Of a stretch of 23,206 bases of DNA, positions 9,654 to 18,917 are shown in pieces (positions within the stretch are counted from its first letter, which is position 1; each line of letters begins with the position of its first letter). The notes below the pieces were generated by a model. It searched no databases. It saw nothing but the letters and a program-made list of their open reading frames with translations, and had not been told where the DNA came from. Position numbers and translations under genes: made by a program. The DNA is from a virus. The stretch spans positions 1-23,206 of IMG/VR virus record IMGVR_UViG_3300049783_001083, one strand, 5' to 3'.

Positions 9654-10277
9654 TTAGATCGGCGGTTCGTCGTCAGTGATGTCTTGCTCGTCGCTGACGT
9701 CCTGCTCGCCGGGTGCAGGTGCATCGGCTTCCGCCATAAGGCGCTTCAGTTCTTCCATGATCGGTTTGACTGCGTCGTGCTTTGTTGGATTGACACTCCA
9801 CCACTTCAGGAATTGTTCGCGGCCATGCTTGGCCTCTGCCCTGGCGTCGTCCTGCATTGGCTTTGGGTCTGGCGGTGGCTTTGCGCCGACCACGATCAGG
9901 GGCTGGATCGTCACAGCCCCCTTGGTGCCGCGTGTCTTGGTAAGCTGCAAGGTCCGTGGCTTGTCTATGCCTTCCATGTGAGACACGCGCACACCGCCGA
10001 CCGCAGCGCCTGCCCAAGTCACGGTCGGATCTTTGTAGATCGTGCAGGACATGCCGACCCAAGCTTTTGACTGTGTGCCCCATATTGAGGCAAGGCAGCG
10101 CGCAGCGGTCTTGCTGGGCTTCCATGGCCGGTTGTTGTCGCCTTCAAACCTGATGTGGATGGGCTGTTCAGTATCAAACACAGTCACGTTGGTGATCTTA
10201 ATGGTGCGTGGTTCCCATAGATCGTCCGCGTTTAGCTGGTCCGATTTTGGCGCTAGTGCTTTGGTTACGTCGCTCAT
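9654..10277 (-). CDS. Conserved phage protein next to YqaJ exonuclease, 207 aa
   Basis: The N-terminal two thirds (DDLWEPRTIKITNVTVF, then NNRPWKPSKTAARCLASIWG, then WVGMSCTIYKDPTVTWAG, then GVRVSHMEGI) belong to a family that I recall beside YqaJ nucleases in many phages, with no assigned function. The domain is beta-rich and could be an OB-like or single-stranded-DNA-binding fold; this is a guess from the pattern. The last 30 residues are very acidic (EQDVSDEQDITDDEPPI), reminiscent of the acidic tails of single-strand-binding proteins. The gene is coupled to the exonuclease by an ATGA overlap, which favours a joint role in recombination. A DNA-annealing protein is the best alternative. Confidence 0.7.
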   Translation of the reverse strand: MSDVTKALAPKSDQLNADDLWEPRTIKITNVTVFDTEQPIHIRFEGDNNRPWKPSKTAARCLASIWGTQSKAWVGMSCTIYKDPTVTWAGAAVGGVRVSHMEGIDKPRTLQLTKTRGTKGAVTIQPLIVVGAKPPPDPKPMQDDARAEAKHGREQFLKWWSVNPTKHDAVKPIMEELKRLMAEADAPAPGEQDVSDEQDITDDEPPI

Positions 10278-10960
10278 GTGATCACCATATCAACGTCGTG
10301 GCTCTGACGTTCTGTTTCAATCAATACAGCCCCGGCGATCCGATCTTGGTATGCCAGAACCTGCTCTTGGACTTTGGCTTCAAAGTCGGTGGCCGCGTCG
10401 ATGATCGCAGCCTGATAGACTGGGTCAGGGAAAACCCGGATCACCCACATCGGCATTCCTCCGCAAAAGCTGACGTAGTCCATCCAGTCCCATTCGGTCA
10501 CAAGAAGCCCTGTCTGAATTTGCAGCTTGTGGTCGGTCGGCACCTCGTTGGTGACAATGACTTCCGTCTGGAACTTCATCAGCCGCGACTTGGCTTCAAT
10601 GCCACCGTTGCTCAGTACCGTGACCCCATCCGGCGAGTATCCGATTTTGAATGCTCCAAAGTCGCGCGTGTAGAAACCGACTTCTTCCAAAGGCTCAACT
10701 CGCTCAGAGTACAATTGGCGCGCGATCACTTCGTCAGAGTGGCCGCGGTAGCCGTTGCTGCCGATAAATGAAGGCTCAGTGTATCCGTTGATCCGTTGCG
10801 CTGCGATTTCCCAGACATGCGCCCGGGTCTTTTCGTTGTTCGACGCCTTCAGTGTTGGCGTCAAAATCAGGTTCATCTCGCTGGCCGTGATGATGCCGTT
10901 GCGCGCCTGCAGCCATTCTTCGCTGCCTTGATCCATGTCGCGGAATGTTTCGATTGTCAT
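10274..10960 (-). CDS. YqaJ-type (lambda exonuclease family) recombinase nuclease
   Basis: The 228-aa protein has the lambda exonuclease/YqaJ signature: QGSEEWLQARNGIITASE near the start, GYSPDG with Asp111, GIEAKS with Glu122 and Lys124, and HKLQIQTGLLVT with Gln147/149. These form the D-(E-x-K)-Q metal site of the PD-(D/E)xK fold. Such enzymes degrade one strand from double-strand ends during phage recombination and replication. It is coupled by ATGA overlaps to the coiled-coil gene upstream and to the 207-aa protein downstream. No RecT, Erf or Redbeta homologue is recognised in the window. Confidence 0.9.
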   Translation of the reverse strand: MTIETFRDMDQGSEEWLQARNGIITASEMNLILTPTLKASNNEKTRAHVWEIAAQRINGYTEPSFIGSNGYRGHSDEVIARQLYSERVEPLEEVGFYTRDFGAFKIGYSPDGVTVLSNGGIEAKSRLMKFQTEVIVTNEVPTDHKLQIQTGLLVTEWDWMDYVSFCGGMPMWVIRVFPDPVYQAAIIDAATDFEAKVQEQVLAYQDRIAGAVLIETERQSHDVDMVIT

Positions 10961-11961
10961 ATTTTCACCTCACAGTGGGCTACGTTGCCGGAAAGAAGCG
11001 CAAGGGCGATCTCATTGATCGACGGGGCTTCGGATATAGATTTGATTGATGCAATGATATCAGACTGGATCTTTGCGCGATGGTCGGCGTCGGCTTCCCT
11101 TGCCATTCTGGCTTGGTCAGCCTGATAGGCTTCGTTTTCCACCCTCAACCGTTCGGAATTAACCGCCCGTTCATGGGCTTCTTTTTTGTCGGCTGCCGCT
11201 TGCAACAAGTCCGCCGCGCGTTTTGCGGTTTCAAACTCTGCCTTTTCTGCTGCCGCTTTAATGTCGGCCACCTTCTGGGCCTCAACTTGGACAAGGCGAT
11301 CAGCTTCCGCCCTTTCATTGGCAATGCGCTCTGCTTCAAGCCGTGCGGTTTCGTCCCGTGCCGCCTGATCAGCTATCATCTTTGTAATTTCTTCGCGTTG
11401 TTCCTCTGATTTCTTTACAGATGTATAAACGATGCGAAGGGTCGCCAAAGACTTGTCGCGAGCTGAATTGATCATAACAATGTAGGCGCCCCAATCTTCC
11501 GAAACCTCAACCGCCTTTATCTTATCAGCCAGAGTTTTAATCTGTTCGCTTGTTTCATCACCGACCAGTTCAAAGCCACCGACTTGGGACAGGGCAGCTT
11601 TGGCCGCATCGGTCCGCAGCTCTTCTTCGGCTTCGTATTTTGTAAGAGGCGCGCGGACCAGATCGCGGATCGCATCAAGTTCGTTTCCGACCTTAATTCG
11701 CGCGTCGTCGATCACCTTGATTTTTGCCTTCGCGTCTGCTGTCAAAAGCTTGGCCGCGTCTTGCAGCGCTGTTTTTGATCGACTGACTTTATAGGCAAGC
11801 GATCCGATTTCCTTGCGGCCCTTGCTAGTCGAAAGGTCTGGAACATGCAGTGATACTTCGTCACGGATCTTTTGAATGATCGGATCAATTGCGCCTGTTT
11901 CGGTGAAAAATGTTTGAAGGTTTACGCCTGCCAAAACAGCAAGTTCTGTTGAGTCTGTCAT
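10957..11961 (-). CDS. Long coiled-coil protein of the recombination operon, 334 aa
   Basis: Residues about 190-300 are a long Lys/Glu/Ala/Arg-rich coiled coil (for example AARDETARLEAERIANERAE). The N-terminal half has a TSKGRKEIGSLAYKVSRSKTALQDAAK segment typical of a family of phage proteins seen upstream of YqaJ or RecT genes and of unknown function. The C-terminus is a short helical domain. The gene is coupled to the exonuclease by an ATGA overlap. It may be an accessory or scaffold for recombination. A direct repeat TGATGTGGTTC (11961-11971 and 11976-11986) lies over the start and its leader. Confidence 0.75.
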   Translation of the reverse strand: MTDSTELAVLAGVNLQTFFTETGAIDPIIQKIRDEVSLHVPDLSTSKGRKEIGSLAYKVSRSKTALQDAAKLLTADAKAKIKVIDDARIKVGNELDAIRDLVRAPLTKYEAEEELRTDAAKAALSQVGGFELVGDETSEQIKTLADKIKAVEVSEDWGAYIVMINSARDKSLATLRIVYTSVKKSEEQREEITKMIADQAARDETARLEAERIANERAEADRLVQVEAQKVADIKAAAEKAEFETAKRAADLLQAAADKKEAHERAVNSERLRVENEAYQADQARMAREADADHRAKIQSDIIASIKSISEAPSINEIALALLSGNVAHCEVKI

Positions 11962-11986
11962 GATGTGGTTCTTTCTGATGTGGTTC
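11961..11986 (-). repeat. Tandem GAACCACATCA in the coiled-coil gene leader
   Basis: An 11-bp sequence (TGATGTGGTTC on the plus strand) occurs twice, 15 bp apart. On the coding strand it is AGAAAGAACCACATC before the ATG, so one copy lies across the start and the other upstream of the ribosome-binding site. A related GGAACCACGGCC precedes the ATG of the gene starting at 17146, suggesting a shared leader. Confidence 0.5.
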
Positions 11987-12006
11987 GTATAAAAACAATA
12001 GCTATT

Positions 12007-12348
12007 CTAGGGCGTCAAATCAACTGCTATTTTTACAGCATCTTCAGCAGATCGCGCAATTCCAGCCCGACCGCCTGCCCACGTCACGCGGTTTAAAAAA
12101 CGGATCTGTGCGTCGGTCGGCTGTCCGATCGCGGTTTTGCATTCAATCGCAATAAACCGACCGTCTCGAGCAACGCCGATAATGTCTGATGATCCTATGC
12201 ACAGCCCAAACTTTATAGGCCTGCCGGTCTTGTCTGGCAGTTGGCCGGTGTTGTTGCGCCAAACCAAGCACCCAGCGCCAGACAACGCGAGCAAACATTC
12301 ATTCAGAATATTAGCCTCTGAAGGTCCGTCCTTTTTATTTCCACGCAT
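12007..12348 (-). CDS. VRR-NUC domain nuclease, 113 aa
   Basis: This is a stand-alone VRR-NUC protein, a PD-(D/E)xK nuclease of the Holliday-junction resolvase-like group common in phages. The conserved pieces are SEANILNECL (Glu11), WRNNTGQLPD, GSSDIIGV (Asp55), and FIAIECKTAIGQPTDAQ (Glu69, Lys71, Gln76). The length matches the family. It probably cuts branched DNA during replication and packaging. I take the ATG at 12348; a longer frame to 12420 runs through the upstream small ORF. The AAAAGAGAAT leader before the ATG is a weak ribosome-binding site. Confidence 0.88.
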   Translation of the reverse strand: MRGNKKDGPSEANILNECLLALSGAGCLVWRNNTGQLPDKTGRPIKFGLCIGSSDIIGVARDGRFIAIECKTAIGQPTDAQIRFLNRVTWAGGRAGIARSAEDAVKIAVDLTP

Positions 12349-12488
12349 ATTCTCTTTTCCCCATCTACTGTGCGACGAACAATTTTGGCGTCGTCTTCTG
12401 ATAAATACCGAGCCCGACAAAATGCCCTGGCCACACTTAGCGACTTCTCATTTTCAACTTCAGAAAATGCTACATCTCCGGCCCTCAC
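12303..12488 (-). CDS. Hypothetical 61-aa protein between helicase and nuclease
   Basis: The ORF starts at GTG in a GTGA overlap with the helicase stop, with AGGAAGG upstream in the helicase's last codons. The product (MRAGDVAFSEVENEKSLSVA start) is charged, with an RARYLSEDDAKIV segment and a basic end (KRTDLQRLIF). It overlaps the VRR-NUC start by 46 bp in a different frame, which is unusual but possible in this packed operon. The family is unknown. Confidence 0.55.
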   Translation of the reverse strand: MRAGDVAFSEVENEKSLSVARAFCRARYLSEDDAKIVRRTVDGEKRICVEIKRTDLQRLIF

Positions 12489-13876
12489 CCCGCCTTCCTC
12501 TGCCGTGCCCGTAAGATGTGCATGGCGTTTCCCTGACTTTTTCCCATTGCCATAAGCTGTTCAAGCGTTCCTGCTCTGCCTTGTTTCATGCGCGCTTCCT
12601 TTTTTTCGCGGCGTTCAGTAATTTCTGCCAGTTCGCCTTCAACCTCTTCAACCATCCTGCTTTGGATTGGATAGACATAGCCGCAACCAGGGCATTCAGG
12701 CGTTGGCCGGTGGACCATGTAGCACTTAGGACACTGCCTGACCGGTATCGTCGGTTCAGACCCTTCGCGCTTCTTTTTTTGCCGGCCTTCCAATTGCCAT
12801 TCTCGATCGTCGTCGGGCAGCCCGTGGCCTCGGTCTGGATCGCTGTTTCCGGCGTGGTCAAATATCAAAGCCGGATCCGGCTTGTATCGCAAAACCCTGC
12901 CCCATTTTTGCAGCTGCAATGACAGCGACTTGGTGGGCCTCATATCTGACATCGCTTCGATTGTGACGTCCATTTGTGCCGCGCTGGCCAAGTCGAAACC
13001 AAACGTTAGCAAGTCGACGCTGGTCAGGACATGCAATTCACGCCGCGCAAATGCTTTGATCCGCCGGCTTCGTTCGTCCTGGTCCATTTCACCGCTGATC
13101 ATCGCTGCCGGGATCCCCCGCTCGTTAAACGCGTCGGCCACAATCCCCGCGTGCTTTAAGCTGGTGCAGAACGTCACGTTCAACCGGCCCGCGGCGTGCT
13201 TTGAATAGTGCGACACCGCATTGCCGATCAAAACCCGGTCGTTTTCCATCACGTCATTCAGCTGGCCTTTTGCATAGTCGCCAGCCGTGATCTTGACCTT
13301 CGAAAGATCAGGCGCCGACGGTGCAAACATGCGATATCGAGACAGGCGTTTTTTCTCTATAAGCTCGCCTATTGATGGGCCTTGTTCCATGTGGTCGAAC
13401 CAATCGCCCAAGCCCTTGCCCGACATCTTCCAAGGCGTCGCAGATAGGCCAATGACCCAAGCACCCTGTGCTTGATAATGCCGGATCACAGTTTCAAGTT
13501 GGGCCGAACCAAAATGAGTTTCGTCAACAAACACCACATTGGCTTTTGGTGCCTTATCTAGCCGCCTTGCAAGCGTCGGCCCTGATGCGATCTGCACCTT
13601 TGCAAATGGGTTTGGCACATATCCAGCCGCAAAATATCCAAACTCAATGCCAAACTTTGTCAAAGTTTCTGCTGTTTGTCTGAGAAGCTCTTTTCGCGGG
13701 ACAATGAAAACCGCCCGGTTCCCTTTGCTGACAGCGCTTTGGATCATGTAAGCGGCCATCACCGTCTTGCCGCTGCCCGTGGCTGATTGCATCAAGACCG
13801 ATTTGTGAGACCTAAGCGAATGACGAACACGGTCGACGACGTCCAATTGATCAGGGAAAAGGTTGATCTGGTTCAT
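12485..13876 (-). CDS. SF2 DNA helicase with C-terminal zinc ribbon, 463 aa
   Basis: Superfamily 2 motifs are clear: a Q-like start (FPDQLDVV), Walker A SATGSGKT (31-38), Ia (FIVPRKELL), DETH (118-121), SAT (145-147), and a C-terminal RecA-like domain with LTSVDLLTFGFDLA and a motif VI-like QKWGRVLR in place of the usual QRxGRxxR. After that, Cys382-x2-Cys385 and Cys395-x2-Cys398 form a zinc ribbon, followed by a charged helix. This is the common phage helicase of the type found beside primase genes. It would unwind or remodel DNA at phage replication forks. It is coupled to the primase-helicase by an ATGA overlap. Confidence 0.9.
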   Translation of the reverse strand: MNQINLFPDQLDVVDRVRHSLRSHKSVLMQSATGSGKTVMAAYMIQSAVSKGNRAVFIVPRKELLRQTAETLTKFGIEFGYFAAGYVPNPFAKVQIASGPTLARRLDKAPKANVVFVDETHFGSAQLETVIRHYQAQGAWVIGLSATPWKMSGKGLGDWFDHMEQGPSIGELIEKKRLSRYRMFAPSAPDLSKVKITAGDYAKGQLNDVMENDRVLIGNAVSHYSKHAAGRLNVTFCTSLKHAGIVADAFNERGIPAAMISGEMDQDERSRRIKAFARRELHVLTSVDLLTFGFDLASAAQMDVTIEAMSDMRPTKSLSLQLQKWGRVLRYKPDPALIFDHAGNSDPDRGHGLPDDDREWQLEGRQKKKREGSEPTIPVRQCPKCYMVHRPTPECPGCGYVYPIQSRMVEEVEGELAEITERREKKEARMKQGRAGTLEQLMAMGKSQGNAMHILRARQRKAG

Positions 13877-16527
13877 AGCGCAAATTCCTCATCGAATGGG
13901 TATTGCTCTTTGTCGACCAAATCGGCGCCTATTACTTCAGCCAATGGCAGCGACGTGACCTTGGATCGCAAACCGGCCATGAAGTAGACCGTCTTGTTGT
14001 CGTGATTGGTCGCGCCAGCAAAGTCTCCAAGGGTTCTCTGCCAAGGCGTGTAAGGTGTTTCGCGCAAGATCCTTTGCATGTTTGGCGCCGCGTTTGCAAT
14101 CAATATGCGGCCATCCTGAACCATTACCCCGTATGATCGCAGCGCCTTTTCGCTGGCTTCCCTCTGAAGGATTGAACCGCTGACGACGTGCTGGACCAGG
14201 TCGCCCATGGTCGCCTCGCGCATTGCCCCGTCGTGATCGTACCGGATCCGGGCTGTCATTAAGTAGGTGACCAGCTTGGCCGCATCGCTGTCGTCGTATG
14301 TTGAGGTGTGCCAATCCCAGTTCTGTTTCTCGATCCAATCCTTGGCTGCCGAAACCGTCACCGCCTTGGTCGTGGTCAGAAGATATGCGCCGGCCAGCAT
14401 CGGCCCGATTTGATCACCGCTGCGTTTGTTCCCAAATACCTGAGACGCCGCTTTGCTGAACACTTCCGCGTTATCAAGCAGGGTCTGCAGGTTCTGGATT
14501 GTCCGAGCCAAAAGCCTTTTTGAATATGCCGGTGTAATTGTCCCGTGAATGTCGCTCAACAATGCCGCAAAGATTTCGTCCCGATCCGGTCGGCTATCCT
14601 TCAAGACTTCCAGAAGCGTGATCCGTTCCTTGTCTGCGACTTGCTCAATCCGAGGAATAATAGCTGCCAGACAAAACGCCGATCTAACCTGAAAGTTTGC
14701 ATTGGCGTTTTCAACCACTGCGCCTGACGATGCGCCTCGGACCAAGCCCAAGATTTTCGTCAGCTCGGATTGTCGCTGTTGGTTTTCTGCTTCGGCTTCA
14801 TCCAAAACAAACGGCCGGCCACTGGATCCCAGCGCCTTGCGAACACCAGCTTCGGTTGTCCCGCCGTCACGCTTGATCCCGATTGATCCTATTATGGGCT
14901 CAACGATTTCATTGATGATCGTCGACTTGCCCGAGCCCGCGCGCCCCACAACCCAGATATGAGGGCGCCATCGCAACGCTGCCCCGATCGGTGCAATGAC
15001 CAACCAGCCCGCCAGCATGTCCCCGTATTGCGGTTTTTTCCATGTCAGGCGGTGGCAGATTGCGCGCAGGTCCGACGCTTCTTTGTTGGTCGCCGGTTCG
15101 ACATCAAGGTCGACAACCCGTGGCCCACTTTCATAAACACTCGTGCCGCGAAACTCTGCCGGATGCGCGCGCCGTCCGTCCGCAGTCACAATCATATCGC
15201 CGCAATTCACCAGCGGCACTCCGCCATCAATCCAAGCGCCTACGCCTCGCGTGTTTTCAGGCTGAAAAATCCCCTGATTGTGGCAAGCGTCCATCAAGTG
15301 CGCAGATGCAAACGCGCATATCTGACTGTCGCTTGTCTTGCCGTCTGGCGAATACGCCGCCTCCCAAAACGATCGAGGTGCAAGCAAATACAAGTTCTGG
15401 ATCCGGCCTAATGCGGTGGCCGGCAGCGTCACGATCTGCCCAGCCGTCTTTGGAAAAAATGAATACAGGCCCCGATTGTGGCCAAGCGGTCGGATCGCTT
15501 CAAGCGGATCAAACGTTCCTTGGTCGCTTTCCCATTGCCCTGGGTCCGGTTCATATTGCGGGGGCTGTTCTTCAGGTATCCGATCAAACGCGTCTTTGAT
15601 TGCCTGCAACCCGTCCGACCTTGCGATATCGTCCCAGTCGGTTCTGCGGCCAGGATCATCTGCCGGCACCTCTGGCGCTACAACTCGTCCGCCCCCGATC
15701 GCAACCGCTGCTTGCTGGGCGTGCTCAATCCCCGGATTGTAAGGCGTGCCATCCGGCTTTGCAGTCCATTGGTCATCGTCCGCGGCGAATATGATCTCAA
15801 CCTTTGGGTTCTTTTTGTGGATCGCCTTGGCCACCGACTTCAAATTGCCAGCGTCAAAAGCCACGATCACTGGCAACCCGAGCGCCGCGCGGACCGCTGC
15901 CGCCGTCGCATATCCTTCCGCAATAACAATCCGATCAAGCGGCTCACCTTTATCAGCCATCGCGTGATATGCGCCGTCTTTTTGCGAACCGGTCAAAAAC
16001 CGCTTTGATCCGTCCGCGCTGATAAATTGCAACCCCGTAATCTTGCTGTTTATTCGCATCGGCACAACAACCATGTCACGCCAAACCCGCGCGCCGTTCA
16101 GCTTTTCCAAGCCCTTCGTGGTCATGTATCCGGTCAGCCCCGTGGTCTCAGCCTTTGCCCAGATCCGGCCAGCCTTTTCTGCCGCGGACTTTGCCTCTTC
16201 AGCCGTCTTTTCGTCCCGAGCCTTTTTCGCTTCAGCCGACCGTCTCTTCCATTCGTCGCGCTGGGCCTGATCCGCTTTGCGATTAGTCTTGATGTGCCAG
16301 TTGTGGGTCACGCCCTGCTTGAAAGACCGAGCCCAGCCAACCGCAAAACCGTCCGGTTCCTGCATTAGCTGGTAGCTGCCGTTCCGCGTCTTCGGCTTAT
16401 CGTCTTCCAACCGATACCGCCGGCGCTTATCGTCCGATATGATTTCAGCCGGGTCATGTGGTCCAATCCCAAGGCTTCGCAGGTAGTCAATAAACTCAAC
16501 AATCGGGTCGTTCATTTGTTTTGCCAT
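13873..16527 (-). CDS. Toprim primase/helicase, 884 aa
   Basis: The protein has two visible catalytic parts. Around residues 199-275 is a Toprim domain: IVIAEGYATAAAV (Glu204), FDAGNL (Asp225) and IIFAADDD (Asp250-252), typical of primases. Around 525-700 is a P-loop ATPase with GRAGSGKS (528-535) and a Walker B-like FVLDEAEAE. The first 130 residues include a Lys/Ala-rich helix. The organisation matches large phage primase-helicases of the TraC-like, DUF927-containing kind. It would prime and unwind phage DNA. An ATG at 16515 (MNDPIVEF) overlaps the upstream stop as ATGA and is as likely a start as the ATG at 16527; neither has a strong ribosome-binding site. Confidence 0.9.
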   Translation of the reverse strand: MAKQMNDPIVEFIDYLRSLGIGPHDPAEIISDDKRRRYRLEDDKPKTRNGSYQLMQEPDGFAVGWARSFKQGVTHNWHIKTNRKADQAQRDEWKRRSAEAKKARDEKTAEEAKSAAEKAGRIWAKAETTGLTGYMTTKGLEKLNGARVWRDMVVVPMRINSKITGLQFISADGSKRFLTGSQKDGAYHAMADKGEPLDRIVIAEGYATAAAVRAALGLPVIVAFDAGNLKSVAKAIHKKNPKVEIIFAADDDQWTAKPDGTPYNPGIEHAQQAAVAIGGGRVVAPEVPADDPGRRTDWDDIARSDGLQAIKDAFDRIPEEQPPQYEPDPGQWESDQGTFDPLEAIRPLGHNRGLYSFFPKTAGQIVTLPATALGRIQNLYLLAPRSFWEAAYSPDGKTSDSQICAFASAHLMDACHNQGIFQPENTRGVGAWIDGGVPLVNCGDMIVTADGRRAHPAEFRGTSVYESGPRVVDLDVEPATNKEASDLRAICHRLTWKKPQYGDMLAGWLVIAPIGAALRWRPHIWVVGRAGSGKSTIINEIVEPIIGSIGIKRDGGTTEAGVRKALGSSGRPFVLDEAEAENQQRQSELTKILGLVRGASSGAVVENANANFQVRSAFCLAAIIPRIEQVADKERITLLEVLKDSRPDRDEIFAALLSDIHGTITPAYSKRLLARTIQNLQTLLDNAEVFSKAASQVFGNKRSGDQIGPMLAGAYLLTTTKAVTVSAAKDWIEKQNWDWHTSTYDDSDAAKLVTYLMTARIRYDHDGAMREATMGDLVQHVVSGSILQREASEKALRSYGVMVQDGRILIANAAPNMQRILRETPYTPWQRTLGDFAGATNHDNKTVYFMAGLRSKVTSLPLAEVIGADLVDKEQYPFDEEFAL

Positions 16528-16760
16528 TTTTGTCTAAACATAAACTTCAATATGCGGTCTTTTTGGGCTTTCTTCAGAATAGCCGCTTCGGCCTCCGCTT
16601 TGTCTTCCTCTTCCCTTTGATTTTCATACTTGGTCACGATCGGAATGTCAGTCCAAGGCCCGTCACCCAGCTTTGTTTGAATCGTGTATCCGGCGTCAAA
16701 AGTGTTTCTATTGAAGTCGGTGACGACATAATTCACTGCCCGGACTTGAAGATCGCTCAT
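16512..16760 (-). CDS. Hypothetical 82-aa protein, start of replication operon
   Basis: The start at 16760 (MSDLQVRAVNYVVTDFNRN) overlaps the upstream stop as ATGA and has AAGGGCT before it. The first half looks beta-rich (AGYTIQTKLGDGPWTDIPIVTKY) and the second is a charged helix (NQREEEDKAEAEAAILKKAQK). It has no signal, membrane segment or named family. Its place directly upstream of the primase-helicase suggests a replication accessory role, which is inference. Confidence 0.65.
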   Translation of the reverse strand: MSDLQVRAVNYVVTDFNRNTFDAGYTIQTKLGDGPWTDIPIVTKYENQREEEDKAEAEAAILKKAQKDRILKFMFRQKWQNK

Positions 16761-17146
16761 AGCCCTTCGCCTTCGTGGAATGTGATCTGTATAATGGCGA
16801 TACAATCAAGCGCAGCGCTAAGAGAAGCGTTGGACTGAGTACCCCATAGGATCCCTCCGCATTCTCGCTTGTACAAGTTGATCCACTTGGTGTGATAAAC
16901 AGGCAGGTCATGCAGCTTGCCAAACAATCCATGTAGATCACTAGAATTTCCGTACCGATCCCAAGTCGCTTGAGTCCATATGCCCTCATATTCTTCAATG
17001 AAGCCAATCAGGCGACCAGACTTCGGCGTAATAAAACAGACCCGAGCACGCCTAGTTACGTTTATGTAATCCTTAGCAACGTACTCAGTGACCGTTCCGT
17101 CGTCGACAAACTCAGTGAATTTCCGGGTGGGGATCTTGCTGTTCAT
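16757..17146 (-). CDS. Hypothetical 129-aa protein, first gene of replication operon
   Basis: The start at 17146 (MNSKIPTRKFTEFVDDGTV) has GGAAGGAACCAC upstream; a longer frame to 17212 runs into the repeat-rich control region and is not preferred. The product is a mixed alpha/beta domain with several Trp/Tyr residues (IEEYEGIWTQATWDRYG, then YHTKWINLYKREC). It has no motif I recognise. As the first gene after the candidate origin, it could be an initiator or regulatory protein for the operon, but this is not shown by sequence. Confidence 0.65.
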   Translation of the reverse strand: MNSKIPTRKFTEFVDDGTVTEYVAKDYINVTRRARVCFITPKSGRLIGFIEEYEGIWTQATWDRYGNSSDLHGLFGKLHDLPVYHTKWINLYKRECGGILWGTQSNASLSAALDCIAIIQITFHEGEGL

Positions 17147-17221
17147 GGCCGTGGTTCCTTCCGTTTGAACATGCAACTTTTTTGCGTGTTTCCGACCGGT
17201 TTGCAAGCCCAAAAATGCAAA

Positions 17222-17531
17222 GTTACCCGATCAGGTTACCTTTCAGAAAAAAAGTGTAATGAAATCAAAGGCCCAGCGCACCGGTAACCGTAACCCAAAT
17301 ATAAATTGATGCCCCTATGTAATAGCAGAAACCAATATACATCTCAGCCCTTACTCAAAAGACCCCCTTCTATATATATCTATTTTTTAAAGAGAAGAAG
17401 AAGAAGAAGAAGAAGGCCCGTAAGTCTTTGAAAACAAAACAGAAAATGAGGTAACCCAAACGTAACCCGGACCCCATAACCCTTTGATTTTATTAAGTAA
17501 CTTTTCCAAGATCAACGGTTCACAAGTTACC
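17222..17531. repeat. GTAACC/GTTACC repeat region, candidate origin or master operator
   Basis: The 475-bp gene-free stretch 17147-17621 holds repeated hexamers. They occur as GTTACC at 17222 and 17235; GGTAACC at 17283-17289 directly followed by GTAACC at 17290-17295; GGTAACC at 17450-17456 followed 11 bases on by GTAACC at 17462; GTAACT at 17497; and GTTACC at 17526. Pairs are 6, 11 or 13 bases apart. Between the clusters lies an AT-rich segment (TATATATATC, then TATTTTTTAAAG at about 17371-17392) and an AAG tract. This layout of iteron-like sites, AT-rich DNA and divergent transcription is what phage replication origins or large operators look like. No initiator is identified. Confidence 0.55.
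17395..17415 (+). repeat. AAG trinucleotide tract
   Basis: Seven perfect AAG units form a pure purine strand directly after an AT-rich segment, between the GTAACC clusters. The tract is non-coding. Polypurine stretches of this kind can affect local duplex stability, and the length is likely to vary by slippage. Confidence 0.8.
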
Positions 17532-17621
17532 AGACCCGATTGCGCACCTGATCAGGCTTTTCCCCTTGCAATTTGTTTGCCATTGGCTTCATATATATGT
17601 GTATCAATAGGAGGCACACAG

Positions 17622-17864
17622 ATGGAAATTGAACAGGGGATACCAGCCCCACCGATCAAACAACGCGCTGCCCCTCGGTCCTGGCCGTTCAAATACATGA
17701 ATGTCAACGACAGCGTGTTTTTTGCCAATCAGCCAAACGGCACATCTTCCAGGCCACCGGTGATCGCACACAACCTTGCGTGTCGACGTCGGGCAATCGG
17801 TAAGGCATGCAAGTTCACCGCGGCTGCCGAAGATGGTGGCGTCAGGATCTGGCGCGTTGAGTGA
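17622..17864 (+). CDS. Small phage early protein, possible DNA-binding, 80 aa
   Basis: The ATG has AGGAGG nine bases upstream, the best ribosome-binding site on this side of the control region. The frame can be read back to 17484, but that part is non-coding-like. The product MEIEQGIPAPPIKQ... has the layout of small widespread phage proteins that start with MEIE.GIP.P, continue with a (Y/W)PF..M.V.DS.F motif (here WPFKYMNVNDSVFF) and end with GGVRIWRVE. I believe these belong to a DUF7303-like family of unknown function. Basic stretches (CRRRAIGKACKF) suggest nucleic-acid binding. It is the first gene rightward from the repeat region, so probably an early regulator. Confidence 0.7.
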   Translation: MEIEQGIPAPPIKQRAAPRSWPFKYMNVNDSVFFANQPNGTSSRPPVIAHNLACRRRAIGKACKFTAAAEDGGVRIWRVE

Positions 17865-17986
17865 TTGAAAAAGGCGCGAGGAGGAAACACCCTCGACCCG
17901 CGCCTGACGATCGCGAGAACCACTCCGCTTTCGTTGCCCTGAAATTTAACAACACCGGAAAGAATATGCAACATGCTTGCAGTTAA
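17861..17986 (+). CDS. Possible 41-aa ORF coupled to the upstream gene
   Basis: A GTG at 17861 forms a GTGA overlap with the previous stop, and the frame stays open to TAA at 17984-17986, overlapping the next gene's start by 14 bp. The product would start MIEKGARRKHPRPAPDDREN and is very basic. There is no good ribosome-binding site. The same bases hold a GC-rich hairpin (AGGCGCG at 17872-17878 with CGCGCCT at 17899-17905), so the stretch may instead be a structured leader. Confidence 0.3.
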   Translation: MIEKGARRKHPRPAPDDRENHSAFVALKFNNTGKNMQHACS

Positions 17987-18332
17987 ACGCAAACTTACAC
18001 CAGCAGATGTCTTCCAGATCGAATATGCAAGGCTCTGGAACCAGCTGAACGACGCCGAACCAAAACGCAAACACTACAGCGGAAACGGGAACGCAGGCAA
18101 AATCTCGCTGCACATCAAACAGCGCTTCAAAAAGATCATCGCGCTTTTGCATGCTGAAAACGCGCTGTCTAAAAACCAGATCACAAAATTGCTGAAGACA
18201 TCCGGCCCAACCCTTAACGATGATCTGGCGCGCATGAAGGCCCTGGGTTTGGTCACGTTTTCAAAGGCTGCGAAGTGCAACACATGCACATATCGGATCG
18301 GAAAAAAGACCCTAGAAACCCTTGACGATTGA
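17973..18332 (+). CDS. Winged-helix-like transcriptional regulator, 119 aa
   Basis: The C-terminal half has a helix-turn-helix of the winged type: KKIIALLHAENALSKNQITKLLKTSGPTLNDDLARM..LGLVTF, then a short wing and CNTCTYRIGKKTLETL. The pattern of a short helix, S.NQI.KLL..S.PTL..DL..M..LGLV is that of small replication or transcription regulators. The ATG at 17973 follows GGAAAGAA. The N-terminal 45 residues are basic (VKRKLTPADVFQIEYARLWNQ is part). Two cysteines in CNTC may bind metal. It lies just upstream of the ParB-like gene and may regulate the modification cassette or the late genes. Confidence 0.65.
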   Translation: MLAVKRKLTPADVFQIEYARLWNQLNDAEPKRKHYSGNGNAGKISLHIKQRFKKIIALLHAENALSKNQITKLLKTSGPTLNDDLARMKALGLVTFSKAAKCNTCTYRIGKKTLETLDD

Positions 18333-18383: not shown

Positions 18384-18917
18384 ATGACCGAACACAACTG
18401 GCCGGCCGACAACATCATGCGGCGCAAGGTGGCAGACCTGATCCCATACGCCCGAAACAGTCGCACCCACAGCCCCGAGCAGATCGCCCAGCTTGCCGCG
18501 TCAATCCGTGAATGGGGTTTCACTAACCCGATCCTGATCAACGAAGCCGGAACCATCATCGCCGGTCACGGTCGCGTGATGGCCGCGCAAAAACTGGGCA
18601 TTGAAGAACTGCCTTGCATGACCGCAACAGGATGGACCGACGCCCAGCGCCGCGCATATGTAATTGCCGACAACAAATTGGCGATGAATTCAGACTGGGA
18701 CATGGAAATTCTAAAGGTCGAAATGCAAGATCTGGGCGATTTCGATCTGACCATCACAGGTTTTGACATAGACGAACTTACAATTTTGTTTGATCAACCC
18801 GTTTTTTCGCCTGGCACAGAAGATGATCAAGGCAAACTAGACGAACTATCGCCAAAAATGGTAACATGCCCGCATTGCGCGGCTGAATGGGATTTACGTG
18901 AACATGGGCAAGGCTGA
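18384..18917 (+). CDS. ParB/Srx-type N-terminal domain protein with C-terminal CxxC
   Basis: The ATG at 18384 has AGAGGA at good spacing; the TTG at 18333 in frame is weaker. Residues about 13-125 form a ParB N-terminal domain: VADLIPYARNSRTHSPEQIAQLAASI, then GFTNPILI, then IIAGHGRVMAAQKLG (nucleotide-binding motif, 59-70) and AQRRAYVIADNKLA. In many phages this domain is fused to a methyltransferase. Here the protein instead stops after a short tail with Cys162-x2-Cys165 (VTCPHCAAEWDL), half a zinc ribbon. The last 14 bp overlap the mom gene. It could recruit or regulate Mom, or bind DNA as a partition-like protein. No ParA is present in the window. Confidence 0.85.
   Translation: MTEHNWPADNIMRRKVADLIPYARNSRTHSPEQIAQLAASIREWGFTNPILINEAGTIIAGHGRVMAAQKLGIEELPCMTATGWTDAQRRAYVIADNKLAMNSDWDMEILKVEMQDLGDFDLTITGFDIDELTILFDQPVFSPGTEDDQGKLDELSPKMVTCPHCAAEWDLREHGQG

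Follow-up and report, generated by a model that had tools for sequence, protein, structure and literature searches.

A GTAAC repeat array beside a phage primase-helicase operon as a probable replication origin

Gene setting and structure of the array

The window, meaning the whole stretch of DNA that was analyzed, is a 23.2-kb phage fragment from IMG/VR. Genes at 9654 to 17146 run leftward and comprise a replication/recombination set (YqaJ exonuclease, VRR-NUC-like nuclease, DEAD helicase, and primase-helicase), while the rightward genes from 17622 onward lead to a ParB-like protein, a terminase, and a portal; the names VRR-NUC, terminase large subunit, and portal are what we take these genes to be from their translations. 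A repeat array was located in the gap between the two gene sets (17147 to 17621), which has a GC content of 41% compared to 52% for the whole window (Table 1). A nucleotide search with the array region against known phages detected no similarity.

Eight copies of GTAAC/GTTAC, five in the plus and three in the minus orientation, were present within 309 bp of this gap (17222 to 17530), out of 20 in the whole window. The first-pass annotation had described at least seven copies of one hexamer in both orientations within about 310 bp. The clustering and the two orientations were confirmed, but the true unit is the pentamer GTAAC, because GTAACC reads GGTTAC and GTTACC reads GGTAAC on the opposite strand, so that neither is the reverse complement of the other; these different hexamers each had five copies in the gap and have the core GTAAC in common. 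Across the whole window, the hexamer showed no excess (7 copies versus 5.05 expected) but was clustered in the gap. After dinucleotide shuffling of the window (1,000 times), no 312-bp stretch held more than five GTAAC-core copies. When all 5- and 6-mers were considered, the observed cluster had a P value of 3e-10 compared to a best value of 9e-9 in 200 shuffled windows, none of which was comparable, and the score of the array in the both-strand scan described below was 7e-11.

An AT-rich stretch and a pure AAG tract had also been reported between the clusters in the first pass, and both were present. The long inverted repeat listed in Table 1 centers on the AT-rich core. An 18-bp direct repeat (AAGTTACCCGATCAGGTT and AAGTTACCAGACCCGATT; 78%) was observed at the array ends (17220 to 17237 and 17524 to 17541), with a further GATCAGG copy beside the array end at 17546 to 17556.

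Table 1. Coordinates of genes and sequence features in the window
Feature	Position	Strand	Remark
DEAD/DEAH helicase	12485..13876	-	Besides the primase-helicase, sole window gene present in most array-bearing relatives
Primase-helicase, 884 aa	13873..16527	-	Toprim primase (EGYATA motif) and D5/SaPI-Rep-like helicase; proposed initiator
Predicted C-terminal winged-helix domain (residues 745-812)	14092..14295	-	Proposed iteron-binding domain
Putative recognition helix (residues 786-798)	14134..14172	-	From model
Iteron, GTAAC core	17222..17226	-	
Iteron, GTAAC core	17235..17239	-	Pairs with 17222 copy, 13 bp
Long inverted repeat, left arm	17257..17271	.	Partner 17481-17495, 14/15 complementary
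Iteron, GTAAC core	17284..17288	+	
Iteron, GTAAC core	17290..17294	+	Pairs with 17284 copy, 6 bp
AT-rich core TCTATATATATCTATTTTTTAAAG	17369..17392	.	Separates left and right iteron clusters; has TCTATATA-type box
(AAG)n tract	17393..17415	+	Pure, 23 nt
Iteron, GTAAC core	17451..17455	+	
Iteron, GTAAC core	17462..17466	+	Pairs with 17451 copy, 11 bp
IHF-consensus match	17477..17489	-	Sole match in window
Long inverted repeat, right arm	17481..17495	.	Partner 17257-17271
TTGATTTTA word	17484..17492	+	Overlaps the only IHF-consensus match
Iteron, GTAAC core	17497..17501	+	
Iteron, GTAAC core	17526..17530	-	
ParB-like protein	18384..18917		About 1 kb from array

Arrays in relatives of the primase-helicase

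Relatives with a homologous primase-helicase (25 to 55% identity) were taken from IMG/VR and from named phages. In the first relative (L001; primase 46 to 47% identical), GCAACC copies facing both ways surrounded an AAG tract in the corresponding gap, and therefore the layout had been kept while the word had changed. Clusters of any 5- to 7-mer within 350 bp were first sought across whole records, and a rule of at least three copies per strand was then applied. Of the 24 genomes or contigs examined, all with a homologous primase-helicase, 20 had the array as the top-ranked place in this unbiased both-strand scan. These 20 were the window, G001, G003, G004, G005, and G007 and the phages phi1422 (GGTAACA), MQ-4 (GTAAC), Mwe-JY13 (ATTACC), KLER1-1 (CTTACA), ZRG1 (CTAAC), S-H1 (CGTTAG), Acjo_20 (GTTACA), MinM1 (CTCACA), ST4 (GCTACC), PHB04 (GATACC), Touem01 (GGTAAC), Dolphis (GGTTAC), phiT5282EW (TGTCACA), and fHe-Yen8-01 (GGAACA). 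In P4, the positive control, the top two places in the scan were crr and ori, recovering the annotated iterons (TGTTCACC), and the best clusters in the negative controls T7, P2, and HK97 reached merely 3e-9 to 1e-8. The arrays of G004, G005, and Mwe-JY13 (5e-8 to 2e-7) and of KLER1-1 (4e-9) were top in their own genomes and within the negative-control range.

The scan gave no individually convincing array in G006 or G002, and PY223 failed the both-strand rule (2 and 5 copies), its array leading a strand-blind scan. No array was found in the whole genome of Mecenats66, the sole 90-kb-class relative without one; a GCAGCC/GGCTGC cluster that was top in the strand-blind scan of this phage was dropped, because all its copies face the same way and it resembles a coding repeat of the alanine type, read in frame. 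A profile search of genome contigs with the primase alignment detected no relative. Second both-strand clusters of CTAGA were observed in phi1422 (17150 to 17334; 3e-10), around a divergent gene boundary, and in G007 (1920 to 2258; 2e-9) and are possibly a shared operator. A dense tandem-like cluster (CGTAGGA, CCCGATC) was present in the ZRG1 record at 39851 to 40033, far from the helicase.

The motif drifted between phages (GTAACC, GCAACC, CTAACG, GATACC, GCTACC, TGTCACA, and TGGAACA), the majority form being NNNAC followed by A, C, or G, with looser forms in G003 (GTCCA) and Mwe-JY13 (GGTAAT). The layout was constant, with same-orientation pairs 8 to 10 bp apart, both orientations, and an AT-rich core, often accompanied by a (TAA)n, (AAG)n, or (TAG)n tract. 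Spacing between same-orientation neighbors was mostly 6 to 13 bp with a peak at 8 to 10 bp, and among gaps of up to 60 bp, a distance of 14 bp or less was found in 88 of 114 same-orientation cases versus 19 of 69 opposite-orientation cases (P4 included). Conservation in related phages, on which the first-pass annotation had staked its proposal, was thus detected, but in the layout and not in the exact hexamer.

Seven distant members were aligned, and a scan with this alignment gave an independent set of 80 new IMG/VR loci. A both-strand array scoring below 1e-9 was present near the enzyme gene in 39 of these loci, compared to none of 80 shuffles, and 41 loci had no array within the DNA stretch scanned. 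Most of the arrays had a GTAAC core, and many started just downstream of the helicase match, within tens of bases of its end. A few of the 39 (TTAAA, ATTAA, and TGATCAA) are probably not iterons and were excluded from later counts. Overall, the association between array and primase-helicase is widely conserved.

The settings of these arrays bear on a second reading from the first pass, that of a large shared operator, in which a phage regulator bound to the repeats would govern the two divergent early operons without any start of replication there. The array is indeed between divergent transcription units in the window, ST4, PHB04, Touem01, Dolphis, PY223, and Mwe-JY13. An operator array would, however, always be found between the promoters that it regulates, whereas the genes flanking the array run in the same direction in phi1422, MQ-4, ZRG1, S-H1, MinM1, and fHe-Yen8-01, and in several of these phages the array directly follows the helicase gene. 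Furthermore, no conserved regulator gene was found near the array, a promoter scan of the gap detected no excess, and an operator would not need an AT-rich core or a triplet tract. The co-directional settings in six relatives weaken this reading, which we regard as unlikely. The constant partner of the array is the helicase and not the promoter arrangement.

AT-rich core and triplet tracts

Triplet runs of at least 11 nt were present in 17 of 44 nonredundant arrays and were, in every case, of the TAA, AAG, or TAG class; the numbers of arrays expected to have such runs were 0.15, 0.01, and 0.06 for the AAT/TAA, AAG, and TAG classes, respectively. Among the first 19 arrays, 11 perfect runs of at least 12 nt were detected in 17 kb of array DNA versus 44 in the other 1.06 Mb. 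The runs within arrays were of the AAT (n = 7), AAG (n = 3), and TAG (n = 1) classes, compared to 0, 2, and 0 elsewhere, these 19 arrays holding 11 of the 13 runs of the three classes in 1.08 Mb. The orientation of the triplet tract relative to the iterons, compared by eye, was inconsistent across arrays, and no polarity is claimed.

Other short elements recurred. A TCTATATA-type box was detected in 15 of the 44 arrays; of the 16 copies of this box in 1.28 Mb of genomes, half fell within array DNA. The TTGATTTTA word was present in 9 of the 44 (0.33 expected), and the TCAATGAC word was likewise overrepresented. A further stretch of the window, CCCCCTTCTATATATATCT (17363 to 17381), was near-identical in the arrays of Mwe-JY13, G004, and ST4 and consists of a C-run followed by TCTATATATAT.

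The candidate initiator and the origin reading

The primase-helicase matched Toprim_3 and DNA primase PHROG 35358 in annotation. An AlphaFold model of the protein (mean pLDDT, 78.5) matched the folds of SCCmec Cch, AsfvPrimPol, poxvirus D5/E5, SaPI5 Rep, and NrS-1, which correspond to the D5/SF3-type group; the best match was SCCmec type IV Cch (5dgk), and SaPI5 Rep (7ola) was also among the matches. A sequence search of solved structures with the protein gave nothing convincing. The last domain was predicted, with good pLDDT in both models, to have a helix, hairpin, helix, helix, hairpin order, which is that of a winged helix, and a fold search with this isolated C-terminal domain found no significant match (best E, 1.2).

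When window genes were sought in relatives, every genome tested had the primase-helicase, and 22 had the DEAD helicase. The proteins put forward as binders in the first pass (16757 to 17146, 17622 to 17864, and 17973 to 18332) had no homologue in any array-bearing relative, except for a 17622 match in L017 alone. Judged from gene content, the candidate binder common to the relatives is the 884-aa primase-helicase, and we infer by analogy that its C-terminal domain binds GTAAC. It is very unlikely that the origin is bound instead by another phage protein, such as a small operon protein or the wHTH product of 17973 to 18332, which would recruit the primase-helicase. The latter gene adjoins the array and gave a weak winged-helix/MarR match, but the distribution of homologues speaks against such a binder, and the P4 and SaPI systems work without separate initiator proteins. 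It is highly improbable that the ParB-like protein or the terminase binds the array as a partition (parS-like) or packaging site, for despite the short clustered sites and the ParB-like gene 1 kb away, ParB-like homologues were present in just 8 genomes and terminase homologues in 2, and the position of the array was independent of the terminase genes.

The reading of the array as an origin bound by the primase-helicase can be compared with known systems. In P4, the alpha protein binds the origin repeats with a winged helix, its C-terminal domain being the part reported to contact the origin, and unwinding and priming follow (PMC4234260). Like the window protein, alpha has a Toprim primase with EGYATA fused to a helicase (36% over 143 aa). 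The 8-bp P4 repeats (TGTTCACC) occur in both orientations beside AT-rich DNA, with annotated pairs 9 to 11 bp apart, and crr is directly downstream of the alpha gene, as are the arrays of phi1422, S-H1, and MinM1. In contrast to P4, which needs separate ori and crr elements about 4.5 kb apart, there is one leading array per genome here, with a different motif (GTAAC rather than GTTCACC), and P4 ori showed no triplet tract; the arrays are therefore not P4 ori/crr proper.

In SaPIs, the iterons adjoin the helicase gene and are recognized by the C-terminal domain of the self-loading helicase, and SCCmec Cch2 binds 5-nt iterons (AAGTG) downstream of its gene via its C-terminal domain (PMC7581432). 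The SaPI Rep origins (SaPIbov1 and SaPI5) resemble the arrays in having iterons near the helicase gene, and SaPI5 Rep was among the fold matches, but these Gram-positive satellites have a separate or different primase, and no sequence relation to a solved structure was recognizable. The putative SCCmec Cch2/CCPol-MP origin likewise has 5-nt iterons, and Cch is the best fold match, but it has merely three direct repeats and a polymerase-derived primase. A lambda-type origin, with iterons inside the initiator O gene, does not fit the intergenic window array. A DnaA-dependent, oriC-like origin does not fit either, as no DnaA boxes (TTATNCACA) were detected in 20 arrays. The DnaA-trio of oriC, for which a wider [T/A] position is allowed, offers a further comparison, since all array triplet tandems of at least 11 nt (TAA, AAG, and TAG) fit 5'-[T/A]A[G/A]-3'. 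The motif itself is 3'-(G/A)AT-5' (PMC10797057). Unlike oriC, the arrays lack DnaA boxes and the initiator would be a D5-type helicase, and the resemblance may reflect AT-richness. It is conceivable, although doubtful, that a D5-type helicase initiator, unrelated to DnaA, reads the sequence of the conserved (TAA)n/(AAG)n/(TAG)n tract to open the strands, so that the tract would be the phage counterpart of the DnaA-trio, beside iterons that co-evolve with the recognition helix of the initiator.

Two of the features of a P4/SaPI-type system were found, namely a D5/SF3-like helicase with a primase and, in noncoding DNA, short iterons that are paired, face both ways, and adjoin an AT-rich core. 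The array at 17222 to 17530 is probably a DnaA-box-free replication origin of the P4/SaPI type, bound by the primase-helicase. The proposal of an origin bound by an operon protein is supported in its first part by the conserved layout, while the binders named for it lack homologues in the relatives. In the mechanism suggested by the known systems, the C-terminal winged helix would bind paired GTAAC iterons in both orientations, two hexamers facing opposite ways would form around the core, and after melting of the AT-rich TCTATATATATCT/(AAG)n element the helicase would load itself and unwind the DNA, with priming by the fused Toprim domain. As there is no DnaA box in the array, host DnaA is probably dispensable there. 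The array probably also influences the promoters of the divergent operons, because in the window it is located between them. The cumulative GC-skew minimum was 10 bp from the array center in Mwe-JY13, 140 bp in G001, and 445 bp in Acjo_20. In most 90-kb genomes the extrema were off the array, and matches were confounded by divergent transcription. GC skew, a check proposed in the first pass, thus gives weak support, with minima less than 500 bp from the array in three genomes, a minority, and neutral or contrary results elsewhere.

A search of open-access papers found P4, SaPI, and SCCmec as precedents and no description of these arrays, and genome analyses of phi1422 (PMC3391216) and Mecenats66 (PMC9503643) make no mention of a replication origin or iterons. 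What is new here is one family with a drifting iteron on a fixed plan, often with a triplet tract. Across the phages, iteron sequence and initiator have probably changed in step, and such joint drift would reserve each origin for the initiator encoded by the same phage. At least 582 relatives of the primase-helicase were present among the contigs examined in one IMG/VR scan, and the arrays supply a testable origin for this large and mostly unstudied family. The family looks like a set of naturally paired initiators and iterons that could reveal the code by which the C-terminal domain recognizes its sites, and it offers a way to test, outside DnaA, what triplet tracts do during origin melting.
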